DNA of 64,000 nt from positions 62,001 through 126,000 of the forward strand of contig JAFRIG010000041.1 of NCBI GenBank assembly GCA_017432895.1. The letters run 5' to 3'. Of the stretch, positions 22,122-58,339 are shown piece by piece (positions within the stretch are counted from its first letter, which is position 1; each line of letters begins with the position of its first letter). The notes under the pieces were generated by a model. The model was not told the DNA's origin and did not search any database. It worked only from the letters and a program-made list of their open reading frames with translations. The position numbers were made by a program, and so were the translations under genes. The DNA comes from Erysipelotrichaceae bacterium. Its GTDB lineage: Bacteria > Bacillota_I > Bacilli_A > Erysipelotrichales > Erysipelotrichaceae.

Positions 22122-22125
22122 ATTT

Positions 22126-30155: not shown

Positions 30156-30170
30156 TTTAACTATAAGAAA

Positions 30171-30194
30171 ATATATCAGCACCTGCTGATATAT
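30171..30194 (-). terminator. Perfect 10-bp stem-loop before the GT-C gene (terminator or 5'-end hairpin)
   Basis: ATATATCAGC (30171-30180) and GCTGATATAT (30185-30194) are exact inverse complements around a 4-nt loop. On the minus strand TTTTCTT follows, so it can end the EamA-pair transcript. A minus-strand TATAAT at 30197-30202 lies just upstream, so it could also form the 5' end of the next transcript. Confidence 0.6.
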
Positions 30195-30917: not shown

Positions 30918-30926
30918 AACAAAACA

Positions 30927-30932
30927 ATTATA
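30927..30932 (-). promoter_or_regulatory. -10 box with near-leaderless spacing before the EamA pair
   Basis: Minus-strand TATAAT is separated by 9 nt (TGTTTTGTT) from the ATG at 30917. There is no Shine-Dalgarno sequence, so the mRNA leader would be about 3 nt. Confidence 0.45.
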
Positions 30933-30956
30933 AACAAAGTTCCAAAATATCATCAA

Positions 30957-33900: not shown

Positions 33901-36156
33901 AGTCCCGACGACACCATCCGCCTTGCTGGCGGAAGCCGTGACCTTCAAACCATCAGCCGTGACAGTGATATCCTTGGTATCGGTGATGCCATTGGCTGAG
34001 GCGACCAGCCTATAGGTGCCGAACTGTTCGGCAAATACCGCACATTTATTGCCAACTGCTTCGATACTGACCTTGTCATCAGCTGTTAAAGCAACATAAT
34101 TGTTGCCATCTTTCTTTAAGATGCTCCAGCTGATATCACCACTCGTATCGACCATATAGGTCTTTTCGACGGTGAAGTAAATCGAACTGCCATCGTCTTT
34201 CTTATCGGCAGTAACGATGTAAGGAAGATTGACGGTCTTGTTGACGACGTTATAGGTTCTCGCATATAAGGCGAAACTCGTGTTGCCCGACAAAGTCCCG
34301 CTAAACAGATCTTTCAAAGTCTGTGAAGCGATGATCAGCTTGTTGCCGCTTTGCGTGATAACGGCCGTTTCACCATTGGCGTTATATAAGTATTTGTCAT
34401 TATTGATCAGGATCCTGCCACCGGTAGAAACTCTATCGTTTCTGACCGCCATCGTCAGCATCTCATAGAAGACAGCTCTTTCCGTACTGTCGGTACATTC
34501 AATGACCAGATCGCCATTGGCAGATACACTCATATTGATCTTGGAAGCATCGATCTCATGAGGTTCATTTTTGAGATCCAGATAAGCGGTCTTTGTGGTC
34601 TCAAGATAACCTTCAGCCGACAAAACCAATGTGTGGTTGCCGTTCATCAGATCGTTCTCGACAAAGAATTCATTGGGAATGACGACCTTTTCGTAACAAT
34701 CCGCATAATCGGGATCGTTCTTGTCATCGATGTATTTAAATGCCTGAACCGTGATCGTCTTATTGCTGGAAGCAGAACTGTTAAGATCTTTAAGTTTGCC
34801 TATATTCTGTAAGAAATTCTGTTCATTATCGACCGTGATATAACCACCGCCGATGTAATTTACCTTCGCAGGCAATACCAATGCATAGTTGTCATCGGAA
34901 GGGCTCTTGTAGTAGCAGCTCGGTGCCGCCAAAGCCTTCAAAAAGTTCTTATCGGAAGAATCGATGACCACGTCGCCGTTTGTGGTTGTCGTGATGGTAA
35001 TATCGCTAGGCGCATCAAGATTCAGTTTGGCGATCTTGGAAAGATTCGCGTTGTTACCGGTGTATTTTGACTCAAGATCGATCGTCTCAGTATATGCCGT
35101 ATAACCCGGTGCACATACCTTGATCGTAATCGGACCATTAGGAACCTTATCATCGATCAAAGCCCTTAAATCGATCTCGATGCCGTGGTGATGAGTCAGA
35201 AAATAGAAATCATCAAAGTAGATAGCCTGCTGCGGTGTCTTTCCGGTGTAATAATAAATGGCACAAAGATTGCCCTTTGAATCATAAATATCGACATGCG
35301 AACCGGTATAGATCCCGCCAAGCCACTGGCCATAGTTTGTTGTATTGTACTTCCTGAATGTTGAGATCCAGGGGTCTTCATCGCCAAGCTTGTCAGCCGT
35401 CTTCATCTCACCGATGCAAAGCAATAAAGAACCTGTTCCAAGTTCGATCAGTCTGGCTTTCCATGGGCCATATGTATTAGGAGTCAGGTTGACGCCCGCA
35501 TTCTTCAGATTGATCGCATAAACTTCAGCTGTTTTTGAGACCTTGATCGTGAAATTCTCAGGTGTAACATTCGCATATTTGAGATATTTATTGACAATCG
35601 TCAGCTCACCACTCTCATATGTGCAGTGGACATTCATGAAAGTGAAATCTTCACTGCCCGATAAAGTTATCGTAGCTGAAGAATCAGCCATGAAAGCAGA
35701 CGCCCAAGGAGCGTTAGTGAAAACGATACCTACATCCTTCGTATACTTGACAGAGGTACCATCACTGTATTCAGCCTGCAGTTCATCGCCTGTTTCATCA
35801 GGCGTTTCAACTAAAGCATCCGATTCGACAGTTTCTTCATCGATCGTATCTTCTGCCGTCTCATCAGGTTCTTCAAAAGCTTCCGGATCTGTTTCTTCCT
35901 CCTGAACCGGCAGTTCTTCGCTCGTTTCTTCTTCAACGATCTCAGTCTGCTCCTCAGTAGTTCCTTCTTCTTCACTTTCTTCCTCAGTGATGACTATAGG
36001 ATCTTCCTGATTTTCTTCTTCAGATACTTCTACCGTTTCTGTCAATGTTTCCTCATCTGAAAGCGTCTCTTCATCTGCATAAACTATTGCAGCGTGAGAC
36101 AAAACGGATGAAAACAACATCATAAACGTTATCAATAAAGTTAATAATTTTTTCAT
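30988..36156 (-). CDS. Very large secreted protein with acidic stalk, Shr-like and Ig-like repeats
   Basis: This 1722-residue protein has a signal peptide (1-27, cut after YA near SHAAIVYADE), a Glu/Thr-rich low-complexity stretch (~28-125), domains resembling the hemoglobin-interacting/DUF1533 type (~350-600, e.g. NGDVVIDSSDKNFLKALAAP), three bacterial Ig-like group 2 domains (~730-1010; NIATVDGEGNITFLKMGTVDIYAY) and about seven further beta-rich repeats. It ends SGTIKSK with no LPXTG motif, membrane tail, or S-layer domain, so how it is held is unclear. AGGAGG precedes the ATG. It stands alone between the flippase pair and the lone carrier gene. Likely adhesin or cell-wall-associated scaffold. 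Confidence 0.85.
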   Translation of the reverse strand: MKKLLTLLITFMMLFSSVLSHAAIVYADEETLSDEETLTETVEVSEEENQEDPIVITEEESEEEGTTEEQTEIVEEETSEELPVQEEETDPEAFEEPDETAEDTIDEETVESDALVETPDETGDELQAEYSDGTSVKYTKDVGIVFTNAPWASAFMADSSATITLSGSEDFTFMNVHCTYESGELTIVNKYLKYANVTPENFTIKVSKTAEVYAINLKNAGVNLTPNTYGPWKARLIELGTGSLLLCIGEMKTADKLGDEDPWISTFRKYNTTNYGQWLGGIYTGSHVDIYDSKGNLCAIYYYTGKTPQQAIYFDDFYFLTHHHGIEIDLRALIDDKVPNGPITIKVCAPGYTAYTETIDLESKYTGNNANLSKIAKLNLDAPSDITITTTTNGDVVIDSSDKNFLKALAAPSCYYKSPSDDNYALVLPAKVNYIGGGYITVDNEQNFLQNIGKLKDLNSSASSNKTITVQAFKYIDDKNDPDYADCYEKVVIPNEFFVENDLMNGNHTLVLSAEGYLETTKTAYLDLKNEPHEIDASKINMSVSANGDLVIECTDSTERAVFYEMLTMAVRNDRVSTGGRILINNDKYLYNANGETAVITQSGNKLIIASQTLKDLFSGTLSGNTSFALYARTYNVVNKTVNLPYIVTADKKDDGSSIYFTVEKTYMVDTSGDISWSILKKDGNNYVALTADDKVSIEAVGNKCAVFAEQFGTYRLVASANGITDTKDITVTADGLKVTASASKADGVVGTPGKMAATAKINGTDDISAYLSYRSGDENIATVDGEGNITFLKMGTVDIYAYIADQEAKTTYSVYTYNKNAKLTWKAVNVNNAEDEYASGIEIGEKFRLSLYADGVEVDRSMLRFKSAAASVASVDDDGVVEGKKVGKANITIYLDDLATRSTVASISVINKVFYSLELEAEGVEDKTEVDGVYNLFFDADSDLKKTVNLKAIGTDKAGNTYTTSNVKFTSVDANIVSVTAAGVATIKKAGEVTVTATVTTNPKDIPVSKDIVFRILDLTPRLSANKVTINKYAEAGARVYVSSAYSEVYPERNSVIKNVSISGSDYNVTLNKDEGYFDLSIADPTAEKIKALKTGKYTLTVTLDNNKSYDFDFTVTVTAKKATVTAKTSGSFNTFTNEGSLNLTATSKDAVIKEIKFLDDWAIFDQNEGTVTLKMKDGKFVNKGTVRFSFEGYNEEGYVDKVVTFKTVATKPTVKLESTAVTLFVPEASEYKTVKVRLIDGKKNPINTGVLTSDAGYQVSAIDANGYATVKVPAANGKVALSYKEAGWNDAIKLTLNVKVIATTPSAKLASATLNYNLKYQDSASVAVKWSSFDDTLLDVVYGWADNEDGISEVTYADGMITVKASKAGTYKLTMIPLVYTSSEKTDYVQLKEMVLTVKVVESDPKITLKTSALKLNKQYKETLATVLKVPTNLGYEANVTGIDHVSALSKDIVDVGFDSENNAFTATLKDTVKNDASIKAGRYLFDVYPLINGKVSSVPIRLIIVLYDKAATAAVTLKGNLNQLDPSIEVTGTIKLSNIVDEVVSVSLSGASGLKAQLSEDGKAMISLTDRSLKDGTYKPVLNITTKTGAVISKQISVKVARKAATLKLVPSTVNAYDTTNKGKVVATSQLVMSGTVNSEISNVKIENSSKAYDVVYEDGKIVVKVVDAAKIKAGSTQTVTIRVDWAGDYGVYDDNIKGLKTTTLKLSIKDISGTIKSK

Positions 36157-36566: not shown

Positions 36567-37430
36567 TTACAGATCTACGCTTGCTTTACGCGGTTCAAAG
36601 CAGCAGCAGGGTCTCATGCAAACGATACGTACACCACTGGCTCTTTGTGGGCCGACTTTCATGAAGGTCGCCAGAACGCTGGTATCACCACCCAAGCCGA
36701 TCGCTCCGGTATGAGATTTGTTTACCTCTTCGGTGATCTTTTTTTCAAATTCATTTTGAACTTCATAGTTGCCATCAGCCATGGCCTGAAGCATCAGCGA
36801 AGACGCCTCATAATGTGTACGTCCGATCCCTACGGCAAGTGTGCAAGGCGAACAGCCAAGCATGGAGACGGCTTCTTTCGCCCAGGAAATGATCTCGTTT
36901 AATACGACATTCATGTCATGCTGATGAAATACCCGGTAAGTCTTCGACCGGATCTCCGGCCCACCACCCTGCATCATGATCGTCAAAGTCAGCTTATCCT
37001 TATCTTCAACATACCTCATCATCATCGGAGCCGGAAGGACCGCCTCTGAACGGCTGTCCAGACCTCCCGACTGATCGATACGTTGTCTGTCGTCACCCAT
37101 GATGCCCATAGGTCTGCCAGGCAGATCGCGAAGGCCTTTTTCAACGCCCTCATAGATCGCTTCGATCATCTTGCCATCGACATTTCTGTTTTCTCCGACC
37201 TGCAATATCAGATGCGGGATGCCGGTATCGTCGCACAAAGGAGAACGTTGATTCTCAGCGATCCTGGCATTTTCACAGATCTCTTCGATCGCCCATCTGG
37301 ACAAGGAAGAAGATTCTTTTTCTTTATATCTTTTATAGATCGCAAACTTTGCTTTGGGAAAAACGGAACTTGCTTTTACCAGTGTCGACGCCGTCTTTTC
37401 AACGATCTCAGTGTATTGTTCATTTGTCAT
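36567..37430 (-). CDS. Class I fumarase/tartrate dehydratase alpha subunit-like protein
   Basis: This 287-residue Fe-S hydro-lyase domain has PLCDDTG (Cys66) and GCSPCTLAVGIGRTHYEAS, two of the cluster-binding regions of FumA-N/TtdA proteins. The C-terminus, VCMRPCCCFEPRKAS, has four cysteines where ordinary alpha subunits have one conserved Cys. Such two-subunit enzymes hydrate fumarate, mesaconate or similar diacids, or dehydrate tartrate, using a [4Fe-4S] cluster. GGGAG lies before the chosen ATG at 37430; the beta-subunit gene overlaps its start by 11 nt. It is the last gene of the run from 46936. The substrate may differ from fumarate given the divergent C-terminus. Confidence 0.88.
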   Translation of the reverse strand: MTNEQYTEIVEKTASTLVKASSVFPKAKFAIYKRYKEKESSSLSRWAIEEICENARIAENQRSPLCDDTGIPHLILQVGENRNVDGKMIEAIYEGVEKGLRDLPGRPMGIMGDDRQRIDQSGGLDSRSEAVLPAPMMMRYVEDKDKLTLTIMMQGGGPEIRSKTYRVFHQHDMNVVLNEIISWAKEAVSMLGCSPCTLAVGIGRTHYEASSLMLQAMADGNYEVQNEFEKKITEEVNKSHTGAIGLGGDTSVLATFMKVGPQRASGVRIVCMRPCCCFEPRKASVDL

Positions 37431-37938
37431 AGATGCTCTCCCCATCGGCGATCGCAATCACCGCCGGATAATCTTTTACGATCAGTTCATTGAACGCTTC
37501 CATACCCAATTGCTCAAAAGCGACCACTTTTCTTTCAACGATCCTGTTTGTCAGTGTTGCCGTAACCGGCGGAATGACCGCGTAGACGGCTTTGTTTTCT
37601 TTGAGTATTTCCGCTGTTTCTTTCTTCAGTTCCCCTTTGCCAAGGTGCATCCTGATTCCGGCTGAAGAAAGAATGCCCATCGTCGATTCGATCTCATATT
37701 TATTGCTGGAAGTCGGACCCACGCCGGCCGGACTGACAGCCGTATGAAAGATCAGTCCGCCTTGTAAATCGAAAGGCGCTTGATTTATACTGCCGTCTTC
37801 GATCATTTTTGCGATCCTGGGTAAAACGGCATCTCTTCCACAAAAGATGCGACCGTTGATCAAAACGGTATCTCCAACCTTCAATGAAGCAACATCTTCA
37901 TCGCTGATCGGAAAATTCAAAACTTTCTTTTCACTCAT
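37420..37938 (-). CDS. Class I fumarase/tartrate dehydratase beta subunit-like protein
   Basis: This 172-residue protein matches the C-terminal (beta) domain of class I fumarases: VGDTVLINGRIFCGRDAVLPRIAK, GGLIFHTAVSPAGVGPTSSNKYE, STMGILSSAGIRMHLGKGEL and IPPVTATLTNRI. It pairs with the alpha gene that overlaps its end. The ATG at 37938 has GGAG upstream and overlaps the acyltransferase stop by 8 nt. In an envelope cluster a dedicated hydro-lyase suggests production or use of a C4/C5 dicarboxylic hydroxy acid such as malate, tartrate or citramalate; that is inference. Confidence 0.88.
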   Translation of the reverse strand: MSEKKVLNFPISDEDVASLKVGDTVLINGRIFCGRDAVLPRIAKMIEDGSINQAPFDLQGGLIFHTAVSPAGVGPTSSNKYEIESTMGILSSAGIRMHLGKGELKKETAEILKENKAVYAVIPPVTATLTNRIVERKVVAFEQLGMEAFNELIVKDYPAVIAIADGESIYDK

Positions 37939-38980
37939 TAGGATACTCCTGTCTAAAAAACTTATGCAGATGATCACCTAACCATGTGATGATCATCGTA
38001 ACTCCATAATACGTCAATATCGAATACAAAGTAATAAAGACAAACCAGATCAATCCTGTTAAAACCGTATATCTTGGCCAGATGAGGCAAAACAGATCGC
38101 GGAAGACCTTGTGATTAAGATAAACCGAAGGCGTGATCAGTGCCCACTTTTCGATCAGCGGATGTTCAAACAGCTTATTGGACGATAAACAGGCAAAGGC
38201 GCTTGTGACCCCGATAGAAATGATGAAGACCAGAATGAAATCATAGACGGTCTGGTAGAAGAAGAACGGGATCACAACGCCTCCCAGGATCAGGCTTACA
38301 GCCGAAACCGATAACAGTATCCTGTCATCATAATGACTAAGCTTTTTTGCCACCTCATAAGCTATCACGCCGAGATTAAGATCCGCAAAACCGCGTAACA
38401 GTGCGCTGTTCAAAATAATGTAACGGCAATCCCAATGTTCGCCAATATAGCCGTATGTCAGACAAAGATATGGATAAATAAGTATGATCGATAAGGGACA
38501 AATAATCTTAATGTATGATCTATCATATTTTTTCAATAAGGTTCTGATCACAAAACCATCAATAATCAATGTCGAAAGATACCAGCTTACCGAATTATAG
38601 GCAAAACCGGCTGGCCAATTGAGACCGATCGAATGAAAAAGAAAGATCTCCGGCAGATGGGATATTATCCCATTAAGATAATCGTATATGCCATAACCCA
38701 GGTAATAGCCTTTACCCAGCAATGCAACAGCAAACGCAAACAAGGCATGCGGAAAATATTTAAGATATGTTTTTTTCAGATCTTTCCAGGCAAAGCCATC
38801 CAGATCGTTTTTTTCTTTCAGATAATAATACTTCCTGGCGATCAAAGCTCCGGAAACAATAAAAAAGAATTCCACCGCAATATACCAGGACGTATAGTGC
38901 CCATACACGTTGTTCAAATGGTAAAAAGCAATCAGATATGTAAAAAAGATCCTGTTAAACTGTATCAGAGAATTCTTCAT
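37931..38980 (-). CDS. Acyltransferase-3 family membrane protein
   Basis: This 349-residue polytopic protein opens NSLIQFNRIFFTYLIAFYHLNNVYG, with the helix-1 histidine of acyltransferase-3 proteins, followed by an EFFFIVSGALIA segment and about nine more helices. It would O-acylate an extracytoplasmic or lipid-linked sugar. It starts 10 nt after the hydroxyacid dehydrogenase gene, without a clear ribosome site (AATATAAAAAATG), and overlaps the fumarase beta gene. Its presence between metabolic enzymes ties that enzyme set to glycan modification. Confidence 0.87.
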   Translation of the reverse strand: MKNSLIQFNRIFFTYLIAFYHLNNVYGHYTSWYIAVEFFFIVSGALIARKYYYLKEKNDLDGFAWKDLKKTYLKYFPHALFAFAVALLGKGYYLGYGIYDYLNGIISHLPEIFLFHSIGLNWPAGFAYNSVSWYLSTLIIDGFVIRTLLKKYDRSYIKIICPLSIILIYPYLCLTYGYIGEHWDCRYIILNSALLRGFADLNLGVIAYEVAKKLSHYDDRILLSVSAVSLILGGVVIPFFFYQTVYDFILVFIISIGVTSAFACLSSNKLFEHPLIEKWALITPSVYLNHKVFRDLFCLIWPRYTVLTGLIWFVFITLYSILTYYGVTMIITWLGDHLHKFFRQEYPNE

Positions 38981-38990
38981 TTTTTATATT

Positions 38991-39962
38991 TCAAGCGACC
39001 AGACAGTTACTGATCTGCTCTATCTGACCGGAATCAAACAGATCGATATTATGCAATGCTTCTTTAAACATCCGCTCATAAGCTTCATAAGCCAGTCCGG
39101 CGATATGTGGGGAAAGCAAGACGTTAGGAAGCGTTCGCAATTCGCTGTCGGCCTTAAGCGGCTCCTCTTCAAAAGTATCCAGACCACAGGCCGCGATCTT
39201 TCCCGACTTCAATGCTTCGGTCAGAGCTTTCTCATCGATGAGTTTTCCTCTGGCGGTATTGATCAGTATCACACCGTCTTTCATCAGACCTATCTGCTGC
39301 TTTGTGATGATCTTACCTGTTTTCTTATCATATGGGCAATGCAAAGAAATGATATCGGATGATCTAAGCAGCTCGTCCAAAGAAAGATAAGTCAGATGCA
39401 GTTCCTTTTCAATTTCTTCATTCTGTCTGAACTGATCATAATATACGATATGACAATCGAAACCATTCAGCATCTTCGCAACCCGCTTGCCGATATTGCC
39501 CATGCCGATGATACCAACAGTCTTGCCAAAAAGTTCATGCGTCTTTATTCCGTTCTTCTGTTTGTTCCATTTGCCATCTTTCATCTCCGGCCAAACAGAA
39601 TAAGTGTTTTTCAGCGTCGCAAGCATCAGCATAAGCGTATATTCGGCCACACTTACCGCATTTACGCCTTTGTTGACATACAAAGGGATCCCATGTCTTT
39701 TCAAGACATCCAGATCAATGCTGTCAAGTCCTACCCCGGTCCGCTGTATCATTTTCAGCTTCTTTGCGGATGCGATCACTTCTTCATCGATCTCAAGTTT
39801 GCCGCTCATCAGAAGATAATCCGCATCTTCTATAGATTTTATCAGCTCACTGCGATCGACTTTTTCCAGCATCTGCAGATCAAAACGCCCGGCAACATTT
39901 TCCCGTAAAAGAGCTGCCAGTTCTCCTTCATATCTGTTGGTCAAAAGGATCTTTTTCTTCAT
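38991..39962 (-). CDS. D-2-hydroxyacid dehydrogenase (SerA/phosphoglycerate dehydrogenase-like)
   Basis: This 323-residue protein has the D-isomer 2-hydroxyacid dehydrogenase fold: an N-terminal substrate domain, GKTVGIIGMGNIGKRVA (NAD site), LHCPYDKKTGKIIT, NTARGKLIDEKAL with the catalytic Arg, and SPHIAG with the catalytic His. It lacks the C-terminal ACT domain of many SerA proteins. It reduces or oxidises a 2-keto/2-hydroxy acid, for example hydroxypyruvate, glyoxylate or a keto diacid. GGAG precedes the ATG, which overlaps the CitE-like stop. Linkage to CitE-like and fumarase-like genes suggests one acid pathway. Confidence 0.88.
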   Translation of the reverse strand: MKKKILLTNRYEGELAALLRENVAGRFDLQMLEKVDRSELIKSIEDADYLLMSGKLEIDEEVIASAKKLKMIQRTGVGLDSIDLDVLKRHGIPLYVNKGVNAVSVAEYTLMLMLATLKNTYSVWPEMKDGKWNKQKNGIKTHELFGKTVGIIGMGNIGKRVAKMLNGFDCHIVYYDQFRQNEEIEKELHLTYLSLDELLRSSDIISLHCPYDKKTGKIITKQQIGLMKDGVILINTARGKLIDEKALTEALKSGKIAACGLDTFEEEPLKADSELRTLPNVLLSPHIAGLAYEAYERMFKEALHNIDLFDSGQIEQISNCLVA

Positions 39963-41104
39963 TTTGCTCCGGCATTGAAAAGATCGGTATAGCTCGATTC
40001 GTCTTTGATGACGCCATAGACCAGTGCCCTGTTATAAAGTTTTTCCGCCCAGTTGCGGTGCGGGCCGATCTCGTTCATCTTATTGGCGTTTTCGCTCTTT
40101 ATGACACCGCCATCGGTACTGAGAATCTGACAGACATCCTTATAAACTTCTTCCGAAATGGCATACATGCCATTGACATAAGGAATATGGGTCGGATGGA
40201 TGATCGTTTTGCCGATGAAACCGTTTGCCTTATCCAGCAAAACTTCTCTAAGCAAGCCATCGACGGCGTCGTTAACGAAAGTTTTAGTCTTCAGCACGGA
40301 ATTGTTGAAACGCTGCGGCAGATCTTCAAACTTCTTATTCTTATCGACCCGGAAATATTCCCAGACCGGACCGGAAACGACATAATCGTTATTGCGGGCG
40401 AAAATATTCAAAACATCTTTCAGACAGTCGGCAACCGGCATGATATCGTAAATCGTATAATTTATGCCTCGACGAACACCGAAAACCGAAGACCAGTCGG
40501 TTCCACCGACTCTGACATTAAGTACCAGATCCCGGTATTTATCCAGGATCTGCTTGACACCCATCAGTTCATCCATTCTGGATTCCAGATAAGCCATCTT
40601 CTTGCTTTCAAGGATCGGCATGCCATACAGCACTTCGCCAAAACGTTCATTCAGTTTCACAAGATGGGAATAATACTCCTCTCCATCCGATACTTCAAAT
40701 TTGGGGAAATTAAAACCCGTAAGATAGGCTACCTGATGTTTCTCAAGTCTGGCGGAAAAATGTTTGAACTGTTCGATATTTCTGACTCTGATTATCAGCA
40801 ACGGGATATCGCCATAAGCGATCCTCCCGTTTTTCACATCCTCATCAAGTTTGTCCAGCAAAGCCAGAACATTGTCTTCGGCAGCCGGAACATCTTCCAA
40901 TCGGCAGGCATCTTCAAAACACATGACCATGGAAGTCAGTCCGGGATATTTTCTGGTCAATATCGCATCATGAAAATCTCTGGTACCAGGCATATACATC
41001 GTAGCCCCCAGACAGAATTTCAGTGTTTCAAGATCCGTACGTTTATCAAATTCGATCGGTTCTTTGATAAAATCGATCTGTTTTCCATAGTTATGATGTC
41101 TCAT
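39959..41104 (-). CDS. HpcH/HpaI aldolase / CitE-like C-C lyase
   Basis: This 381-residue TIM-barrel protein of the citrate lyase beta/HpcH family has KFCLGATMYMPGTRDF, MVMCFEDACR (metal/substrate acidic residues) and NVRVGGTDWSSVFGVRR. Family members cleave or form C-C bonds at 2-keto or acyl-CoA acids (citryl-, malyl-, citramalyl-CoA). It is longer than CitE (~290) and resembles stand-alone CitE-like proteins found near ATP-grasp genes. GAGG precedes the ATG. It overlaps the hydroxyacid dehydrogenase gene and follows the ATP-grasp gene by 10 nt. The actual aldol substrate is unknown. Confidence 0.82.
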   Translation of the reverse strand: MRHHNYGKQIDFIKEPIEFDKRTDLETLKFCLGATMYMPGTRDFHDAILTRKYPGLTSMVMCFEDACRLEDVPAAEDNVLALLDKLDEDVKNGRIAYGDIPLLIIRVRNIEQFKHFSARLEKHQVAYLTGFNFPKFEVSDGEEYYSHLVKLNERFGEVLYGMPILESKKMAYLESRMDELMGVKQILDKYRDLVLNVRVGGTDWSSVFGVRRGINYTIYDIMPVADCLKDVLNIFARNNDYVVSGPVWEYFRVDKNKKFEDLPQRFNNSVLKTKTFVNDAVDGLLREVLLDKANGFIGKTIIHPTHIPYVNGMYAISEEVYKDVCQILSTDGGVIKSENANKMNEIGPHRNWAEKLYNRALVYGVIKDESSYTDLFNAGAK

Positions 41105-41114
41105 TCAATCCACC

Positions 41115-42398
41115 TCATAAAAGAACACTCGTCTTTTCCATAAATAACTTCGAAGTCAGTTCGTTTTTACCTATACGGATACTGACTCCTTTATCATCCA
41201 AAACATCAGTATATTCATCAGCGATCTTCAGCTTATGCAGACACTCTTCAACACTGTCGGCAGCGATCAGATACTTCAGAACATTACAGCTGCTGGGTTT
41301 ATCACCCGTAATTTGATCACCTTGTTTCTTTAAGATAATTACATCGGAAACGATATTCTCTGCCATCGACTTTTCAATTCCGCAGATCTGATCCAGTACT
41401 CCTTCTGAGGCAAAGATCGGAAAACATATCACATACTTTTCAAGACGGGCAGAATCATTACTGTCACCTGTTTTTCCCAGATAGGAATCAATAGAATACG
41501 ACAGCATATCAAAACCGGCATATTCTTTAGCGACCATCGAAGAAGTGCCGCCTGCGACTCGGGGCGAAAACTCGATCACATAGACCTCGTCATCTCTGAC
41601 GATGACCTGCATGAAAAAAGGCGTATTATCCGGCAATTCGAAAGCATCGCCGATCTGTGTTGCGATCTTTAACAGTTTTTTCTCTAAAACCCTGTTCAGC
41701 TTTGGAAAATAGGCATTGCAAAGCTGTCTTGTCATATTTCCATCGATGACCGATATCTTACAGGTACTTAATATGAGATGGAATATGCCGTCTTTGCGAT
41801 AGCCATGCACACCCATTTCCGTACCCTCGATAAAATCTTCAACGATCGCTTTGCCTGACAGGCCAAAGCCGCACGCTTTGTTGACAGCTTCCTGCAGTTT
41901 TTCTTTCTCGGCAAAGGCGACCCGGCTTATCCCCGCTGAACCGCAGCTGTCGGCCGGCTTTACGATCACCTCTTGGGCCAGATCAAGTTCACTTATATCC
42001 GTATCTTGCGAAACGACATAATAACGGGCTGTCGGAATATCATTATCCATCATGATCTTCTTCATCAGCCGTTTGTTGGTGACCTTTTCAGCCGTATCCG
42101 CAGAAAAAGGATGGGGCAAATCAAGCCTTTCCGCTGTTTTCATTGCAACATTCATCTGCTGATCAAGACAGGAACTGAGCACTATATCAGCATGGTACTG
42201 TTTGGCGATATTATAGACCGCATCATAGTCCATCGCTGATTCTTTGCAATGTATATCTGCAAATTCAGCAGCGGGAGGGTCATCAAAATAATCGACCAGG
42301 ACTGTTCGATATCCTCTTTCTTTCAATTCTCTGATCAGTTCACCATGCGGTACCGTACCTCCCAGTACGACCGCTGTTTTCTTATCCGTTTCGCTCAT
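41115..42398 (-). CDS. ATP-grasp carboxylate-amine ligase, paralogue A
   Basis: This 427-residue ATP-grasp protein has a Rossmann-like N-terminus (TAVVLGGTVPHGELIRELK), SSCLDQQMNVAMKTAE, KVTNKRLMKKIM, the phosphate loop VIVKPADSCGSAGI, and VIEFSPRVAGGTSSMVAKEYAG at the metal site. It is a close paralogue of the enzyme at 45644, sharing long stretches nearly unchanged (DQQMNVAMK, TAEKVTNKR). It would join a carboxylic acid to an amine via an acyl phosphate. ATG 42398 is chosen over GTG 42404; the ribosome site is weak. It lies between the TIM-barrel and CitE-like genes, so the acid is probably made by this operon. Confidence 0.87.
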   Translation of the reverse strand: MSETDKKTAVVLGGTVPHGELIRELKERGYRTVLVDYFDDPPAAEFADIHCKESAMDYDAVYNIAKQYHADIVLSSCLDQQMNVAMKTAERLDLPHPFSADTAEKVTNKRLMKKIMMDNDIPTARYYVVSQDTDISELDLAQEVIVKPADSCGSAGISRVAFAEKEKLQEAVNKACGFGLSGKAIVEDFIEGTEMGVHGYRKDGIFHLILSTCKISVIDGNMTRQLCNAYFPKLNRVLEKKLLKIATQIGDAFELPDNTPFFMQVIVRDDEVYVIEFSPRVAGGTSSMVAKEYAGFDMLSYSIDSYLGKTGDSNDSARLEKYVICFPIFASEGVLDQICGIEKSMAENIVSDVIILKKQGDQITGDKPSSCNVLKYLIAADSVEECLHKLKIADEYTDVLDDKGVSIRIGKNELTSKLFMEKTSVLL

Positions 42399-42407
42399 CT
42401 GCACTTT

Positions 42408-43304
42408 CTAATCGACCTTCCACTTCGTGGGTGAAGCGATCGCTTCCGGATAATACTCATCGATCATTCGTTTAACTAAAACGATCTGTTTCGCTCGCTT
42501 TTTGGCGTCATCCGCTGTTGTGTCCCAGCTGTGTGTCTTGGCAACCGAACCGCCGGTCTTCAGATAGATCGGAGCTGCGATGCGGATCATTTCCGGAACT
42601 TCATAATGACGTATGAAACCGCCGGAAGACTCCGGATTTTCTGTATGGATATCGATCGGAATATCGATCGCCTGTCTGATTGCCGCCAGCATCTGCAGCT
42701 GTATATCTCTGACCGGGTTGAACGAATTTGCGCCAATACTTTCCAAAAGTTTGCCGGAACAGGGATTGCCCTGGCCGGTATGAGCTGAAACCTTGAATTC
42801 GCAATCCGCCGGCAGTTCTTTGGCTTTTCTCATTTCATTAAGCAGCCATAAGCAACCCTCATCATAGACCAGAAAACCACGACAGCCGAATCTTACAGCA
42901 CGCTTGACATCTTCGATTGCTCTCACGATCTGTTCCTGACCACGCAAACGATATCCCATGCGCTGGCCTTCCGGAGTGTGAACGGAAGCACTGGTATCGG
43001 TCGTTGCTCTGGGGCCGATAGCCAGGATCAGCTGTACATTGTATTTTTTTGCCAGAGCTACCATTTCTTCGATCTCTTCATCCAGTAAGGTCCAGATACC
43101 CTTAGTCTGGGTAACCCTGTGGATCGGAACATGGTAAGCATCCAACTGTTCGAGCAACGCCTTCATTGCGCCAGGACCCTGAATACCGGGAACTTCAAAA
43201 CGATATTGCCCGCCATCGGGGAATCTTTTATCGGAAGTGGGAAGATCATAGGCATCCCCTGAAGGCATACCGATCTTCTTTAAAAAATCTCTGGTCTCCT
43301 GCAT
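42408..43304 (-). CDS. TIM-barrel protein annotated in relatives as U32-like, unknown reaction
   Basis: This 298-residue protein begins KKIGMPSGDAYDLPTSDKRF and carries ILAIGPRATTDTS, VYDEGCLWLLNEMRKA and SAHTGQGNPCSGKLLESIGANSFN, a barrel pattern like that of U32-family proteins, some of which act on rings or C-C bonds and not peptides. It is clearly conserved-looking but I cannot assign a reaction. AAGGAG lies before the ATG. It lies 15 nt after the MmgE/PrpD gene and 9 nt before the ATP-grasp gene, so it is likely a step in the same acid-forming pathway. Confidence 0.75.
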   Translation of the reverse strand: MQETRDFLKKIGMPSGDAYDLPTSDKRFPDGGQYRFEVPGIQGPGAMKALLEQLDAYHVPIHRVTQTKGIWTLLDEEIEEMVALAKKYNVQLILAIGPRATTDTSASVHTPEGQRMGYRLRGQEQIVRAIEDVKRAVRFGCRGFLVYDEGCLWLLNEMRKAKELPADCEFKVSAHTGQGNPCSGKLLESIGANSFNPVRDIQLQMLAAIRQAIDIPIDIHTENPESSGGFIRHYEVPEMIRIAAPIYLKTGGSVAKTHSWDTTADDAKKRAKQIVLVKRMIDEYYPEAIASPTKWKVD

Positions 43305-43319
43305 ACGCGTGTTCTCCTT

Positions 43320-44669
43320 TTATAGTTTTATTAAAAAGACATTCAAATCTTTTTCTATATTATATATCCAATTGAGAAGCTCCTTACTCAATTCCCTGTC
43401 TTTTCCCGAAGAAGCCATCAGAGAATAATACTTCTCTTCCAAAGCTTCCCTGCTTAACGGATTCTCCGGTTCCCCATAAGGATAATCAGCCCGACAGGTA
43501 TATGAAGCCTCAGCTGTTTTTATGGTGACGATCGATGCCCGTTTATCCGGAACAAGAGCGGAAAGTTCCTTGTTTTCAATGATCATGATCTTTTTTAAGA
43601 CCTTCTTTATCCTTTCATCATTGATGCATGCATCCGAAAACTGCTCATAATTGACTTTCCCAAAACAGATCGCCGAAGCTACACCATATGGGATCGACAT
43701 CTTAGCCGAATCAGTATTTAAGATTTCCGTATGATCATGACCTTTCAAAGCCAGATCGTAGATCTCAATCAGTACCTCTTGAATATCATTTAAATCGATA
43801 TCATTGTCTTCACAGATACGTAAGGCAGCTTCTACTGCTCCATGGGCGTGCCGGCAGGCTGCATAAGGCTTTCGATAGATCGTCTTTATGGCGTATCCGG
43901 TTTCGCAAGGCTTCAAGAGTCTGTTCAAGTCAACGTTTTCGGCACATGCTTTGAAAAATCCGCGATCTCCACCCAGGATATCTTTCGGCCCATCAAGCGC
44001 TTCATTGGCAAAACAGACCGCATTGATCGCTGCCATAGCCGCATGGCCAATCGTATAAGGCTTGAGTTTGGAACCGCCATCACTCATTTCCAGAAGTCCG
44101 GCAGCACTTGTCGCCGCCGCGCATATCACGGGATTATACAACGCTTTTTCATAGCCGATCGCCGCTGCAGCTCCGATTGCCGCCCCGATACAGGCACAGG
44201 TCCCGGTCGCATGGAAACCTTTCTTTTTATGTCCGGGCTGTATCGCTGAAGAAAGCCGGATCGTCGCTTCATAGCCGGTCACGATGCCCCTTAACAGGTC
44301 GTCGCCGGATAGACCATTATCTTGCACAAAAGGTAATATCGCACTGATCACGACCGACCCTATATGGATCATACCGAAACGATGCCCATCATCCAGTTCG
44401 ATATAATGACTGTGAAAACCATTGAGGAAAGCGGCAGTCAGCACATCTGCTTTCCTGTTAGTTCCGATGACCGTACATCTGCCACGATCGATTGCCATTT
44501 TGTTCAGATAGGAAGCGGTCTCATTACGCAAAACAGATGCACCGATCATAGTGCATCCAATGTAATCCAGAAGACAGTTTTTGGCTTCCTGCAATACATC
44601 CGCCGGAAACTCCTGTCTGGAAAAATCGTATATGGAATCGATGAAGTTAGCAGTTATCGTCTCTTCCAT
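43320..44669 (-). CDS. MmgE/PrpD-family protein
   Basis: This 449-residue protein has the MmgE/PrpD pattern: DYIGCTMIGASVLRNE, NGFHSHYIELDDGHRFGMIHIGSV, GYEATIRLSSA, GFHATGTCACIGAAIGAA and ACRHAHGAVEAALRI. Known members are 2-methylcitrate dehydratase, cis-aconitate decarboxylase and iminodisuccinate epimerase. All act on di- or tricarboxylic acids without metal or cofactor. AGAGAGG precedes the ATG, which overlaps the GT2 gene end by 23 nt. In this operon it could dehydrate, decarboxylate or epimerise a diacid that is later joined to a sugar by the ATP-grasp enzymes. The precise reaction is not predictable. Confidence 0.88.
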   Translation of the reverse strand: MEETITANFIDSIYDFSRQEFPADVLQEAKNCLLDYIGCTMIGASVLRNETASYLNKMAIDRGRCTVIGTNRKADVLTAAFLNGFHSHYIELDDGHRFGMIHIGSVVISAILPFVQDNGLSGDDLLRGIVTGYEATIRLSSAIQPGHKKKGFHATGTCACIGAAIGAAAAIGYEKALYNPVICAAATSAAGLLEMSDGGSKLKPYTIGHAAMAAINAVCFANEALDGPKDILGGDRGFFKACAENVDLNRLLKPCETGYAIKTIYRKPYAACRHAHGAVEAALRICEDNDIDLNDIQEVLIEIYDLALKGHDHTEILNTDSAKMSIPYGVASAICFGKVNYEQFSDACINDERIKKVLKKIMIIENKELSALVPDKRASIVTIKTAEASYTCRADYPYGEPENPLSREALEEKYYSLMASSGKDRELSKELLNWIYNIEKDLNVFLIKL

Positions 44670-45582
44670 TTATGACCTCTCTGATATAATACTGCGGCAT
44701 CCCGCTGACAGTCATATAGATCCTGCCGAGATATTCACCCATGATACCCAGTATGACCATGATCATACCGCCAACAAACAGGATCGCCAAAAGCGTACTG
44801 GTATAGCCGGAGACCTTGATCGGTCTTACGACACTGCGGACCAGCAGATAGACCATCCAGATGAAACTGAAACCGGAAAATAAGAAACCCAGATAAGTTG
44901 CGATACGCAAAGGCATCATCGAAAAACTAATAAAGATATTCAGCCACATCCTGAACAGTTTCTTGAAGGTGTAGCCGGATGAACCCGAGATCCGTTCATG
45001 ATGTTCGATCTCGACATTGCCATACTTGCTGGTGACTTTCATCAGAAAAGAACCGATCGAAATGAAAGGACTCTTATATGTCAGCATCGCATCCACGACC
45101 GTCCGGCTCCAGGCCGTAAAAGATGATCTTTTGATCCCCTTGGGCTTGTTTCCCATGAGTTCCGCGACCCAGTTATGCAGATCACTCATGAACTTCTTAA
45201 ATGCTCCGTGCTTCTTGTTTTTGAATTCGGCATAAACAACATCATAGCCTTCATTAAGCTTATCTGTAAGCTTAAAGATCCCTTCAGCCGGATGCTGACC
45301 GTCATCATCCATGAAAACGATGACATCGCCCTTGGCCTGCTGAAGCGCCGCCAGTTTTGCTGAAGGCTGACCATAATTACGGGAAAGATCTATGCCGGTG
45401 ATTCTGCTATCTTCTTTACAGAGCTGCAGAATGACCACGAAAGTATCATCAGGAGAACCATCATTTACTAATACGATCTGATAGTCCTGTCCCCTTTTCT
45501 GAAATTCATTTTTTATATCCGCTACCACCAAAGGCAGGTTTTTGGCCGATTTATAACACGGAATACATACAGATATCAACAT
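44647..45582 (-). CDS. Polyprenyl-phosphate glycosyltransferase, GT2 (ArnC/GtrB-like)
   Basis: This 311-residue protein has a GT2 domain (SVCIPCYKSAKNLPLVVADI; VNDGSPDDT; FMDDDGQHPAEGI) and two C-terminal membrane helices (~225-250 and ~262-290). It belongs with ArnC/GtrB enzymes that load undecaprenyl phosphate. The ATG at 45582 follows GAGGAAGAAAAA; an 11-codon longer frame lacks a ribosome site. It lies between paralogous ATP-grasp B and MmgE/PrpD in the same run, tying the acid pathway to a lipid-linked sugar. It is a second enzyme of the same kind as that at 26343. Confidence 0.9.
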   Translation of the reverse strand: MLISVCIPCYKSAKNLPLVVADIKNEFQKRGQDYQIVLVNDGSPDDTFVVILQLCKEDSRITGIDLSRNYGQPSAKLAALQQAKGDVIVFMDDDGQHPAEGIFKLTDKLNEGYDVVYAEFKNKKHGAFKKFMSDLHNWVAELMGNKPKGIKRSSFTAWSRTVVDAMLTYKSPFISIGSFLMKVTSKYGNVEIEHHERISGSSGYTFKKLFRMWLNIFISFSMMPLRIATYLGFLFSGFSFIWMVYLLVRSVVRPIKVSGYTSTLLAILFVGGMIMVILGIMGEYLGRIYMTVSGMPQYYIREVINGRDDNC

Positions 45583-45643
45583 TTTTTCTTCCTCATCCAT
45601 CATATTACACTTCAATCATACTAATTAAAGCAACAAAAATCTA

Positions 45644-46936
45644 TTAATCGACCTGCAGCATCATCGTTAATTTAGCCGAAAATTCTTCAAAAGAAACACT
45701 CTTCACAGGCAGGCGAATGCTGTTTCCCTCAGGATCTTCCACATCGATCAGATCTGAAAATCGACGCATCTTGCTGTAACATTCTTCGATACTTGATGCA
45801 TCAAAAACAAGCTTGGCAACGATCGATCTGCTGGGCTTGGAATCATCCGCTTCCTCACCTGCTTCCTTCAGTTTTATGACCGCATGAAGCATGTTCTGAT
45901 CAATTAACTGATCGACACCCTTCAGTTTCTCGTAGATTCCTTTTTTGGCATAGATCGGCAAGCAACAGACATATCTTCCTAAAACGGCTGTCTCATCATA
46001 TTCTCTCCGGATCCCCAGATAAGAATCGATTGAAAAAGAGATCAGATCAATACCGGTATAATCCTTTGCCACCATGGACGAGATCCCTCCTCCTAAGCGT
46101 GGCGAAAACTCCAAAACGTAAACTTCTTCATCTTTTATCATGACCTGCATGAATAACGGTACGGATCCTTTCAATTCAAAAGCGGCAAGGATCTGATCAG
46201 CCACGTCCTCAAGCTTTTTCTGCAAAGCGGCATTCAGTTTCGGCAAATAGACATTATAAAGCAGAAGATTCGTATTCTCGTCAGCGTCACAGACTCTGCT
46301 GGTACCAAAAAGGATCCGGGCATGGCCATTATCCGCTATGGCATGAACGCTCATCTCACACCCGTCGATGAATTCTTCAACTATCGCTTTCCCCGTCAGC
46401 CCAAATGAGCAGGCCTTATTCAAGGACTCCTTCAGTTTTTTCTGATCAAGTTCAGACAGCTTCGTGACACCTGCCGAACCGCTGCTGGCATCGGGCTTGA
46501 TGATGACCGGAGCTTTTAGATCAAGAAGTGAAAGATCGAAGTCCCTGTCAACGACATAGTATTTTGCGGTTGGGATATGATATTCCATCATGATCTTCTT
46601 CATCATCCGCTTATTGGTGACCTTTTCTGCCGTCGCAAAAGAAAAAGGATGTGAAAGACCCAACTCTTCCGCAACTTTCATCGCGACATTCATCTGCTGA
46701 TCCAGACAGGAACTAAGTACTAGTTTAGTATCATATTTTTTCGCAATAGCCAGCACCGCCTCAAGATCCATTGCCGATTCCCGGTAATGAACATCCGCAT
46801 ATACGGCCGCCGGAGGATCCGTAAAATAATCGATCAGAACAGTATGATAAGCTCTTTTTTTTAGCTCTTTGATCAGATCGATATGAGGGACCGTTCCTCC
46901 CAGAACGATAGCTGTTTTTTGCCTTGATATATCCAT
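45644..46936 (-). CDS. ATP-grasp carboxylate-amine ligase, paralogue B
   Basis: This 430-residue ATP-grasp protein has TAIVLGGTVPHIDLIKELK, SSCLDQQMNVAMKVAEELG, the phosphate loop VIIKPDASSGSAGV and LEFSPRLGGGISSMVAKDY. It is a close paralogue of the enzyme at 41115, which suggests two related acid-amine couplings in one pathway or two polymers. AAAGG lies before the chosen ATG 46936. It is the first gene of the run that ends with the fumarase-like subunits, and lies 51 nt after the Wzx gene. Confidence 0.87.
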   Translation of the reverse strand: MDISRQKTAIVLGGTVPHIDLIKELKKRAYHTVLIDYFTDPPAAVYADVHYRESAMDLEAVLAIAKKYDTKLVLSSCLDQQMNVAMKVAEELGLSHPFSFATAEKVTNKRMMKKIMMEYHIPTAKYYVVDRDFDLSLLDLKAPVIIKPDASSGSAGVTKLSELDQKKLKESLNKACSFGLTGKAIVEEFIDGCEMSVHAIADNGHARILFGTSRVCDADENTNLLLYNVYLPKLNAALQKKLEDVADQILAAFELKGSVPLFMQVMIKDEEVYVLEFSPRLGGGISSMVAKDYTGIDLISFSIDSYLGIRREYDETAVLGRYVCCLPIYAKKGIYEKLKGVDQLIDQNMLHAVIKLKEAGEEADDSKPSRSIVAKLVFDASSIEECYSKMRRFSDLIDVEDPEGNSIRLPVKSVSFEEFSAKLTMMLQVD

Positions 46937-46987
46937 AACAAGCACCTTTCAATATTGCAATTTTGAAACTATCTGCCTGTTTCCTAT

Positions 46988-48442
46988 TTATTTCTTCAGT
47001 TCCTTATAGACCTTCATTACTTCAGGATACAGTTTCCATAAGACTAATACACTCACCACCAGGAAAACGATATACCTGTAAACATAAGGCAAGGAATAAG
47101 ATAAAACACTCAATTGATTGATTGCCCAGAACAGCAACGAAATGAAAACCATCTTTTTAAAAGAGACACATCGGCTGCCACAGACCTTCTTCTCCAAAAC
47201 ACCCTGTATCACCAGCAGCATCAGATAGCTGAAAGCCGTCGTATATGCCGCAGATCGATAACCGAACTTCGCGATACAGAAAAGGTTCAATGCCATATTT
47301 ATCAGCATCGCAGCCATGGTTCCCAAAGCACAGTATAAAGTCTTTTTCTGGTAACGTTCGATCGAAGTAAAACAGTTGCTGAAAAAGCGAAACAGCGTCC
47401 CTGTCACCATCGGAGCGATCAGATAGACAGCCTCTTTGTATCTTGAACCACCAAGTATCAGAACCAGTTCCGGTCCCAGGATAACCAAAGCCCAGGAAAT
47501 ATAACCGAAAAGATATGTGATGAAATCCCAGGGCTTCTGTATCTCTTCCGCTTCGTTTCGATCAAGCTTTTCAAAAAGCCAAGGCATGAATGAATGCCAT
47601 ACGGCATCTTCAATGATCCAGATGATAAACGACACTGTCGTAGCCAAAGAGAATATACCGGTAACTTCACTTGAGACCATCTTGCGGATCATGATCTTAT
47701 CCGCCTGGTTCATGATCTGAATGGACAGGGTCTCCGGTATCAGCGGCAAACTATACGTAACAGCATAATGCCAATACTTCCTGTCTCTAGAAAAATCGCC
47801 ATCCTTGCACATGATATAGGCGGCAAGCAGACCACCGATGATCTGTGGCGTATAATAACCGATGACTCGTAGATCGACGAGACTGTCATATAATCCCTTC
47901 CTGTTTCCCCAATATAACAAAGCGATCGAAAGCAGTGTCGCGGGAATCATCATCAAAGAAGAAAGGATGACGCTTCGCTTATATCTGAGCATATGCGCTT
48001 CCCTGGTCTGGAAATACATGACCGATGTATATGAGAATGTATAAAGGATCATGAACACATACATCAGATCATCGATCTCGATAAAACCGATAAAGATCTT
48101 TCTGAAGAAGATGGATACCAGCAGATAGAATACTGCGATAACAAGATATGATAGACTCAAGGTCGAACTGACATATTTCTCAAAATCATCCCGGAAATCA
48201 TACTTCGCTCTTGAGACGCTCCGATACATGCTCAAAGAAAGTACCGGTACCAGTATCAGCAGCCAGGATTCATATGTGCGCAATTCGCCATATTGAGCCG
48301 TCGAGACCAGCCTTGAATAGATGGGTGTCGCCAGAAAAGAAACCCCTCTGACGAGAAGCTGCATCAGGATATAAAAGATCCCGGCGATCGTCGCCTTTCT
48401 ATTAAGATCTTTTTTGCTGGTTTTATTTGTATTTTCGTTCAA
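46988..48442 (-). CDS. wzx: Wzx-type polysaccharide flippase (MOP/PST family)
   Basis: This 484-residue protein has 12-14 membrane helices and the N-terminal pattern KATIAGIFYILMQLLVRGVSFLATPIYSRLVSTAQYGELRTYES seen in Wzx/RfbX flippases (residues ~15-58). These move undecaprenyl-diphosphate repeat units outward. The start is TTG 48442 with AAGGA 11 nt upstream. It implies that at least one polymer here follows the Wzx/Wzy route, although no wzy is recognised in the window. It is followed by the ATP-grasp/GT2 operon. Confidence 0.9.
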   Translation of the reverse strand: MNENTNKTSKKDLNRKATIAGIFYILMQLLVRGVSFLATPIYSRLVSTAQYGELRTYESWLLILVPVLSLSMYRSVSRAKYDFRDDFEKYVSSTLSLSYLVIAVFYLLVSIFFRKIFIGFIEIDDLMYVFMILYTFSYTSVMYFQTREAHMLRYKRSVILSSLMMIPATLLSIALLYWGNRKGLYDSLVDLRVIGYYTPQIIGGLLAAYIMCKDGDFSRDRKYWHYAVTYSLPLIPETLSIQIMNQADKIMIRKMVSSEVTGIFSLATTVSFIIWIIEDAVWHSFMPWLFEKLDRNEAEEIQKPWDFITYLFGYISWALVILGPELVLILGGSRYKEAVYLIAPMVTGTLFRFFSNCFTSIERYQKKTLYCALGTMAAMLINMALNLFCIAKFGYRSAAYTTAFSYLMLLVIQGVLEKKVCGSRCVSFKKMVFISLLFWAINQLSVLSYSLPYVYRYIVFLVVSVLVLWKLYPEVMKVYKELKK

Positions 48443-48509: not shown

Positions 48510-49589
48510 CTAGCGTTCAAAAACGATATCCCACAGCTCTTTCTTCATCGGCTTTAGTGAAGCCTTTTGCGGGCCGGTCATTTGGGCATAGGAGTTGCCT
48601 TCGACCATTATCCAGCCTTCTTTTGACAAAGCGATATCCCAGCCGACATAAGAAAGTTTCTCTGTCTTTTCAGCTAAAGTGAGAACAAGTTTTTTTGCCT
48701 GTTCCCATTCCGGCAGCTGAAAGCCTTTAAAAACAAGGCCGCTATCCGGATGCTTTTTCAACATCACCCCTGTTTCAGCGCAGCCATCCGTCAGAACGAT
48801 TCCCGTTTCCTGATCCACCAGACAGGCCGGTCCGCCCATAAAACTGTTGTCAATGACCGAGTTTTTCTGTCCCGTACGAAAGTTGCTGGCCCAAAGCACG
48901 ATTTTACCGTTTACCGTCCTCAAAGTCCTGACCTTCACCGTATTGACAGAAGCCGGATGGAAAGCTGCCAATCTGGGATCCTGTTTTATCATTTCCTCAC
49001 AAACGACATTTCCGGAACTTCTGACTTTGGCAATCAGTTCCTCAGCCGAAGCAAAATCTTTAATATCAACTGCATAGATCCCGACCCCTCTGGATCCTGT
49101 ATCATCTTTAACGATAAAACGAGGATGGCGCCGTATGAATTCCTCATCCAGATCTTCGCCCCTGATCACTTCCCTTTTATAAAATTCTTTAAACAGTTCA
49201 TAGGTACGGTATTTATGAGTCAGGATCCGGGCTTCTTCTCTATCATTCAGTATGGAAGCGATCTTCAATGTATCGACTGCCGAAATAAAACCTTCTTTTT
49301 TCTGTTCATCAGCCTCGTAGATATGATACATAAAGTAATCTTCGGCGGAATAGCCGTATTTCATCCAGCATCTTTCAATATCTTTTTTTATTTTTTCTCT
49401 ATCTTGAGCTTTGTATACGGAAGCATTCTGATCCAGCAGTTTTTCGATCCTTTCTTCCGCAGGTTTGTGACTCAGTTTATGAACATAACATGCACTGTCA
49501 TACGCAAAAGAAGAAACACCATGCAAAAAAGTTCCGCCATGCAGATACCAGTTTGATAAGATCCTGTTTCCTTTATCGATCAGACTCAT
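48510..49589 (-). CDS. ATP-grasp protein of the sugar-transfer-associated type
   Basis: This 359-residue protein resembles the ATP-grasp group found in capsule clusters (sugar-transfer associated): helical N-terminus, FIVKDDTGSRGVGIYAV as phosphate-binding region, VCEEMIKQDPRLAAFHPASVNTVKVRT, then GGPACLVDQETGI and VGWDIALSKEGWIMVEGNS with the metal ligands. It is not closely related to the other three ATP-grasp proteins. AGAGG precedes the ATG. It lies 67 nt before wzx and just after a terminator, so it likely heads the wzx unit. Substrate unknown. Confidence 0.85.
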   Translation of the reverse strand: MSLIDKGNRILSNWYLHGGTFLHGVSSFAYDSACYVHKLSHKPAEERIEKLLDQNASVYKAQDREKIKKDIERCWMKYGYSAEDYFMYHIYEADEQKKEGFISAVDTLKIASILNDREEARILTHKYRTYELFKEFYKREVIRGEDLDEEFIRRHPRFIVKDDTGSRGVGIYAVDIKDFASAEELIAKVRSSGNVVCEEMIKQDPRLAAFHPASVNTVKVRTLRTVNGKIVLWASNFRTGQKNSVIDNSFMGGPACLVDQETGIVLTDGCAETGVMLKKHPDSGLVFKGFQLPEWEQAKKLVLTLAEKTEKLSYVGWDIALSKEGWIMVEGNSYAQMTGPQKASLKPMKKELWDIVFER

Positions 49590-58304: not shown

Positions 58305-58339
58305 CGTTTTCTTCCTCTTACTCAAGCATATATCAAGAA

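Follow-up and report, generated by a model that had tools for sequence, protein, structure and literature searches.

Gene content of the locus

A stretch of 64,000 nucleotides from a draft Erysipelotrichaceae genome (GenBank assembly GCA_017432895.1, contig JAFRIG010000041.1, positions 62,001 to 126,000; the whole stretch is called the window, and positions are counted from its first letter) was analyzed for a run of genes in which dicarboxylate-type enzymes are interleaved with ATP-grasp ligases and glycan genes. The draft genome is 2.29 Mb in size and 93.5% complete. Gene families in the window were assigned using Pfam and NCBIfam. Ten co-directional genes were found on the minus strand at 36567-46945, with neighbours overlapping or at most 28 bp apart, which bears out the tightly spaced operon described in an initial annotation made from the sequence alone. 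The operon very likely starts further upstream and includes two more genes, with gaps of 42 bp to the Wzx gene and then 67 bp from Wzx to the ATPgrasp_ST gene. The genes, in order of transcription, are as follows.

48510-49589, minus strand, ATPgrasp_ST protein (PF14397, E=1.2e-38), probable first gene of the transcript
46988-48442, minus strand, Wzx-type oligosaccharide flippase (PF01943, Pfam match)
45644-46945, minus strand, ATP-grasp ligase B, a paralogue of ligase A (52% identical)
44647-45615, minus strand, GT2 glycosyltransferase of the ArnC/PgfS (undecaprenyl-phosphate sugar transferase) type, with two C-terminal transmembrane segments
43320-44669, minus strand, MmgE/PrpD family enzyme (PF03972 and PF19305)
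42408-43304, minus strand, TIM barrel without a Pfam family ("U32-like"), the marker of the cassette
41115-42404, minus strand, ATP-grasp ligase A, the cassette-conserved ligase
39959-41104, minus strand, CitE/HpcH-like C-C bond lyase (PF15617, E=2.9e-112)
38991-39962, minus strand, D-2-hydroxyacid dehydrogenase (Pfam/NCBIfam), with R238, E267 and H286 conserved in the cassette family
37931-38980, minus strand, protein with multiple transmembrane segments, putatively acyltransferase-3-like
37420-37977, minus strand, class I fumarase/tartrate dehydratase beta-type subunit, FumB (PF05683)
36567-37457, minus strand, class I fumarase alpha-type subunit, FumA (PF05681), with conserved Cys 75, 202 and 285

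Most of the family assignments in the initial annotation were recovered with Pfam or NCBIfam, but the barrel matched no Pfam family, and the acyltransferase-3 call agreed with membrane topology only and had no family match.

Distribution and conservation of the cassette

The barrel protein was scanned against one genome per species, which gave 233 related stretches, and the best 80 (79 distinct loci) were analyzed. Counts were made on the 62 loci that span 12 kb or more; the loci are not independent, and many come from metagenome-assembled genomes. The set of MmgE/PrpD, CitE-like lyase and fumarase, for which a gene-order search had been proposed, recurs as a conserved cassette: the barrel was present in 62 loci, CitE in 60, MmgE in 59, FumB in 59 and FumA in 58. 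Because the genes recur together in unrelated genomes, the set is not a chance association. The best 80 barrels, 77-86% identical over almost the entire protein, span at least seven phyla: they were found in Bacillota, Bacteroidota, Fibrobacterota, Pseudomonadota, Lentisphaerota, Omnitrophota and a spirochaete. The cassette is not a binning artefact, since it is carried by cultured isolates (Mediterraneibacter massiliensis, Tissierella simiarum, Billgrantia campisalis, Vreelandella nigrificans and [Clostridium] citroniae). It is rare within each lineage, being found in 5/273 genomes of the family, 2/295 of the phylum sample and 3/198 of the Bacteroidota sample, and no barrel homologues were found in the phage records searched.

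Mean pairwise identity across the cassette loci was 0.80 for the barrel, 0.63 for CitE, 0.63 for FumA and 0.38 for MmgE. Barrel, CitE and fumarase distances were correlated (r 0.65-0.89), and MmgE distances only weakly so. The best reading of these data is a cassette of four enzyme activities (MmgE/PrpD, TIM barrel, PF15617 lyase and two-subunit class I fumarase) that transfers horizontally as a block between distant bacteria. The nearest named relative of the window's cassette is that of Solobacterium sp. UBA1761. A wzx gene 58-60% identical to that of the window lies upstream of GT2-MmgE in loci L007, L008 and L010, in which the window's order of flippase, glycosyltransferase and acyl genes is kept. 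The acyltransferase-like protein has a 39% identical homologue at the equivalent place in L007, and most cassettes lack it. CoA-transferase-like genes directly follow the cassette in L020, L047 and L061, and a sodium symporter-like gene is also present in the latter two.

Two mutually exclusive versions

A 2-hydroxyacid dehydrogenase was found in 30 of the 62 loci and a decarboxylase in 31, with both sets in the one remaining locus (L076) and no locus lacking both (Fisher p=1.4e-16). The dehydrogenase slot is filled by an HADH-type enzyme or by one of the unrelated, non-homologous LDH2 family, for which the best NCBIfam model was L-sulfolactate dehydrogenase with a score below its cut-off. The other version has an enzyme of the phosphonopyruvate decarboxylase family, nearly always together with an aldo-keto reductase. 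Since 2-oxo acids are the substrates of either ending, the cassette would most simply make such an acid; if a single type of 2-oxo acid served both endings, they would be expected to exclude each other.

The version label was mapped on trees built using FastTree and IQ-TREE. On the barrel and FumA trees there were 11-12 changes of label, of which supported branches force at least 4; on the CitE and MmgE trees there were only 2, whichever method was used. On this pattern, the barrel and fumarase would act on a precursor common to both versions, and CitE and MmgE would belong to the version-specific part. A scheme in which all four core enzymes were equally common to both versions was replaced, as CitE and MmgE track the version in the trees.

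Glycan context and amino-sugar genes

The search for glycan markers relied on similarity to a limited set, and the counts are therefore a lower bound on glycan context. In the dehydrogenase version, glycan markers were found in 28/30 loci, ATP-grasp ligases in 28/30 and tripartite ATP-independent periplasmic (TRAP) transporters in 0/30; the corresponding figures for the decarboxylase version were 20/31, 11/31 and 8/31. A DegT-family aminotransferase lies within 2.5 kb in 15/30 dehydrogenase-version and 1/31 decarboxylase-version loci (Fisher p=2.6e-5). Ten of these 15 aminotransferases were scanned: 2 passed the cut-off for dTDP-4-amino-4,6-dideoxygalactose (Fuc4N) transaminase, and the other 8 had their highest scores, which were below the cut-off, with the model for dTDP-4-dehydro-6-deoxyglucose aminotransferase (DesI). 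Among named ligases with solved structures, ATP-grasp A is nearest to L-amino acid ligases (E=3e-9). The nearest relatives of the window's cassette (L007-L010) have only one ATP-grasp protein of the A/B type, at the A position.

The window has its own amino-sugar transaminase, which is listed here with neighbouring genes.

28464-30182, minus strand, protein with nine transmembrane segments and no family match, possibly a GT-C glycosyltransferase
30242-30956, minus strand, two adjacent EamA/SMR-type proteins of four transmembrane segments each, a putative ArnE/ArnF-like flippase pair
27307-28452, minus strand, dTDP-Fuc4N transaminase of the WecE type (556.7 bits against a cut-off of 375)
26343-27275, minus strand, second ArnC/PgfS-like GT2

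Judged from its sequence, the transaminase is likely to be the source of an amino-sugar acceptor.

Core enzymes

The barrel had no Pfam match up to E=10 other than a 12-bit match to Fe-ADH, and did not match the Pfam U32 peptidase model; a phmmer search against PDB chains gave no function. Its AlphaFold2 model is a confident TIM barrel (mean predicted local distance difference test score 87) with low-confidence loops. With Foldseek and VIA-align, fructose-bisphosphate aldolases, CutC, RuBisCO-like proteins and the U32 protein Mk0906 (5d88) tied, the last with Z=14.2 and a root-mean-square deviation of 3.5 over 187 residues, a score shared with many TIM barrels. Distant homologues (33-43% identical) carry the annotation "U32 family peptidase". 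Those of Thermomicrobium and Streptomyces lie near genes for enolase-superfamily proteins, metallo-beta-lactamase-fold or SMP-30-like hydrolases and sugar ABC transporters (the Streptomyces neighbours were assigned by sequence inspection), and these neighbourhoods hint at sugar-acid chemistry. As a guess, the barrel may carry out aldolase-type or isomerase-type chemistry on a 2-oxo acid. Another distant homologue (35% identical) was found on an Enterobacter chuandaensis plasmid (L088, 10898-23135) in a cluster with a 2-hydroxyacid dehydrogenase, an aminotransferase, two haem-oxygenase-like diiron proteins (diiron-oxidase-like), an APH kinase, a nucleotidyltransferase and an MFS protein; this reads as a biosynthetic cluster.

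Both fumarase domains are present, and the three conserved cysteines of FumA are presumed cluster ligands. FumA passed only the subfamily cut-off TIGR00722 and FumB passed none, and no equivalog-level match to fumarase or tartrate dehydratase was obtained. Complete loci without FumAB (L040, L063 and L066) and the Bacteroidota genomes G910 and G921 carry a lyase of the fumarase/aspartase superfamily, which is closest to 3-carboxymuconate cycloisomerase (PcaB-like; 482 against a cut-off of 595) and also resembles XcbD from the bacterial pathway to coenzyme M. Whole-genome searches placed this lyase near the cassette in 5/5 checked FumAB-less genomes, either about 12 kb away at most on one contig or as part of the fetched locus, and the FumAB-bearing genome G325 has only a distant homologue of it. 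From this non-homologous replacement of FumAB it is argued that a hydration-type or addition/elimination step is essential, and the cassette seems to require such a step.

The nearest relatives of the CitE-like lyase outside the cassette are lyases of Ter operons (43-48% identical). No PF15617 lyase was detected in L024 or L036, where the barrel is adjoined by citrate-lyase-type genes (CitC-, CitX-, CitE- and CitF-like, as judged from their sequences); this points to, without proving, a citrate-lyase-like cleavage. The nearest solved structures to the MmgE/PrpD enzyme are Bacillus subtilis IRG1, IDS-epimerase and cis-aconitate decarboxylase, and its residues D93, H102, H153, K203 and K267 are conserved in the cassette family. 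Presumed catalytic residues are conserved in MmgE/PrpD, FumA and the dehydrogenase of the cassette.

Proposed pathway and alternatives

The operon probably represents a cassette, spread by horizontal transfer, that provides an acyl building block, with an anionic 2-oxo acid converted to a 2-hydroxy acid and then joined as an amide to the 4-amino sugar of a glycan. The barrel enzyme and fumarase would act on a precursor common to all versions, and the C-C lyase and MmgE/PrpD enzyme would shape the anionic 2-oxo acid. In the version of the window, the D-2-hydroxyacid dehydrogenase would reduce this to a D-2-hydroxy acid, which the ATP-grasp ligase would activate with ATP and couple, as an amide, to the amino group at C4 of a 4-amino-4,6-dideoxyhexose. 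The glycosyltransferases and flippase would then assemble and export the decorated glycan. We infer the order of reactions, the 2-oxo and 2-hydroxy acids, the amide bond and the acceptor alike. Malic and 2-hydroxyglutaric acids are known to be amide-linked to amino sugars in bacterial surface polysaccharides (PMC3210612), which makes a hydroxy-dicarboxylic acid amide plausible as the product class; for the same reason, by analogy, a hydroxy-dicarboxylic acid is a first guess for the acid.

The initial annotation had proposed a dedicated pathway in which a hydroxy-di- or tricarboxylic acid is coupled by amide bonds to a lipid-linked amino sugar. The conserved unit, its glycan and ligase association in the dehydrogenase version and the amino-sugar enrichment support this in part; the acid may be of another kind, and the acceptor may be nucleotide-linked instead of lipid-linked. 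The initial annotation had named the occurrence of these enzymes without glycan genes as a refutation, and this was partly borne out: L024 and L036 have no glycan genes, and 11/31 loci of the sister version show no glycan marker, so the link between core chemistry and glycans is not universal. Several other points weigh against a glycan pathway. No single acid accounts for all four core enzymes, half of the dehydrogenase-version loci lack a DegT-family aminotransferase within 2.5 kb, and the Fuc4N transaminase of the window is about 8 kb from the cassette, beyond the gene for a secreted protein of 1722 residues. The best 80 of 233 stretches are also the most similar loci and a non-independent sample. 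A catabolic operon, in which an imported di- or tricarboxylic acid is broken down to acetate and pyruvate and the glycan neighbourhood stems from shared mobility only, would fit the glycan-free loci, the TRAP transporters of the decarboxylase version, which are often accompanied by a LysR regulator, and the distant barrel homologues in apparent sugar-acid catabolic loci. It is nevertheless an unlikely account of the window, since the dehydrogenase version has no TRAP transporter and nearly always has glycan genes plus an ATP-grasp ligase, the cassette genes are interleaved with wzx, GT2 and ligase in one run, and no organic-acid transporter was seen in the operon. L024 and L036, where the dehydrogenase version lies beside a citrate-lyase operon, possibly represent a catabolic use of the cassette; they have two barrel copies, both dehydrogenase types and neighbouring C45-like peptidase, metallo-beta-lactamase-fold, peptide ABC and creatininase-like genes.

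If the hydroxy acid is made as proposed, the ATP-grasp ligase could instead couple it to an amino acid or uronic-acid derivative or yield a free small molecule, or the membrane acyltransferase could form an O-ester. The solved relatives nearest to ligase A are consistent with the former, as is the position of the putative acyltransferase among the cassette genes with the latter, but 4-aminosugar-type aminotransferases are enriched beside the ligase-bearing version and most cassettes lack the acyltransferase-like gene, and such outcomes are rather unlikely. Synthesis of phosphonopyruvate without phosphoenolpyruvate (PEP) mutase, with phosphonolactate or hydroxyethylphosphonate placed on glycans, was suggested by the cassette decarboxylase, which passes the NCBIfam phosphonopyruvate decarboxylase cut-off (384 against 312.5 bits) and groups with PEP-mutase-linked members, 49 columns being invariant across both groups. 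PEP mutase was over cut-off in only 5/29 cassette genomes; among 295 genomes, 5 decarboxylases were over cut-off, of which 4 are near PEP mutase, and the fifth (G325) has no PEP mutase and lies directly beside the barrel, with the matches 22 bp apart. Against this, the cassette decarboxylases form their own long-branched clade (SH-aLRT 99), MmgE, CitE and fumarase have no evident role in a phosphonate route, and cassette loci are without the nucleotidyltransferases that two thirds of phosphonate clusters possess (PMC6697681). A complete PEP-mutase set close to the cassette in L058 would be redundant if the cassette made phosphonate. The window's genome (93.5% complete) had no match to TIGR02320 (PEP mutase) or TIGR03297 (phosphonopyruvate decarboxylase). 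A phosphonate made by the cassette is accordingly very unlikely, as is a broader scheme in which an anionic 2-oxo acid resembling phosphonopyruvate, with a C-P or C-S bond, is formed by the barrel and partner enzymes without PEP mutase for surface glycans across many phyla; a 2-oxo acid of another anionic type is more likely. A phosphonate product had also been judged unlikely after searches for PEP mutase, PntC, LicD and CDP-glycerol transferase. In L058, the set at 16070-20876, near a decarboxylase-version cassette, consists of a PEP mutase fusion (sharing 76% identity with the Segatella copri protein), a phosphonopyruvate decarboxylase and a phosphonoacetaldehyde reductase.

Other features of the window

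Legionaminate-type nonulosonate genes are present at 17590-23106 (PseF/NeuA-like, NeuC, NeuB, NeuD, CBS-domain nucleotidyltransferase and LegB). At 4901-10870, an L-lactate dehydrogenase, an AMP-forming ligase and a DltB-like MBOAT protein lie in a row and resemble a lactylation or D-alanylation set, and another acyl-group module at 15129-16907 has an FkbH-domain protein near MaoC-like and membrane acyltransferase-like genes. Two secreted proteins of 1722 residues (30988-36156) and 1737 residues (53112-58325), the latter with Listeria-Bacteroides repeats and a transglutaminase core, are possible glycan carriers.

Significance and comparison with known systems

The literature was searched for the gene combination, PEP-mutase-independent phosphonates and ATP-grasp N-acylation, and no description was found, in agreement with the earlier impression that the combination is undescribed. 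The proposed route, if true, adds to the surface chemistry of gut, rumen and other bacteria a pathway that includes the barrel, an enzyme so strongly conserved across phyla. Because the layout is modular, with shared steps, two exclusive endings and interchangeable hydratases, a small number of enzymes would suffice to test the chemistry. Proteins that score as phosphonopyruvate decarboxylase would often be tied to the cassette and not to PEP mutase, and may be misread as a sign of phosphonate production.

Lyases related to CitE occur in Ter-operon PF15617 modules, in plasmid loci with phosphoribosyltransferase, StiP and, in L108, TerD; the cassette lacks these three, none of which was found among the window's open reading frames scanned from 18274 to 58325. 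Phosphonoglycan clusters with PEP mutase and phosphonopyruvate decarboxylase (for example that of Segatella copri, L100) share with the sister version a decarboxylase of the same family and a reductase in surface-glycan loci, but the cassette has neither PEP mutase nor the PntC nucleotidyltransferase and has extra dicarboxylate-type enzymes. Itaconate, mesaconate and citramalate degradation resembles the cassette in an MmgE/PrpD enzyme near cis-aconitate decarboxylases, a mesaconase-like class I fumarase and a CitE-like lyase, whereas most cassette loci have no CoA ligase or CoA transferase and have the barrel, dehydrogenase, ATP-grasp ligase and glycan context. Plain itaconate-to-pyruvate catabolism was rejected as a candidate, as its product, pyruvate, needs no dedicated pathway in a glycan locus. 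N-acylated 4-amino-4,6-dideoxyhexose glycans (4-amino-4,6-dideoxyglucose [Qui4N], Fuc4N and anthrose type, with N-malyl or N-2-hydroxyglutaryl groups) share dTDP-4-aminosugar genes, a flippase, glycosyltransferases and acyl-making enzymes with the window. Known routes to N-acylated amino sugars use CoA ligase or N-acyltransferase genes, whereas the window has ATP-grasp ligases together with MmgE, barrel, CitE and fumarase.

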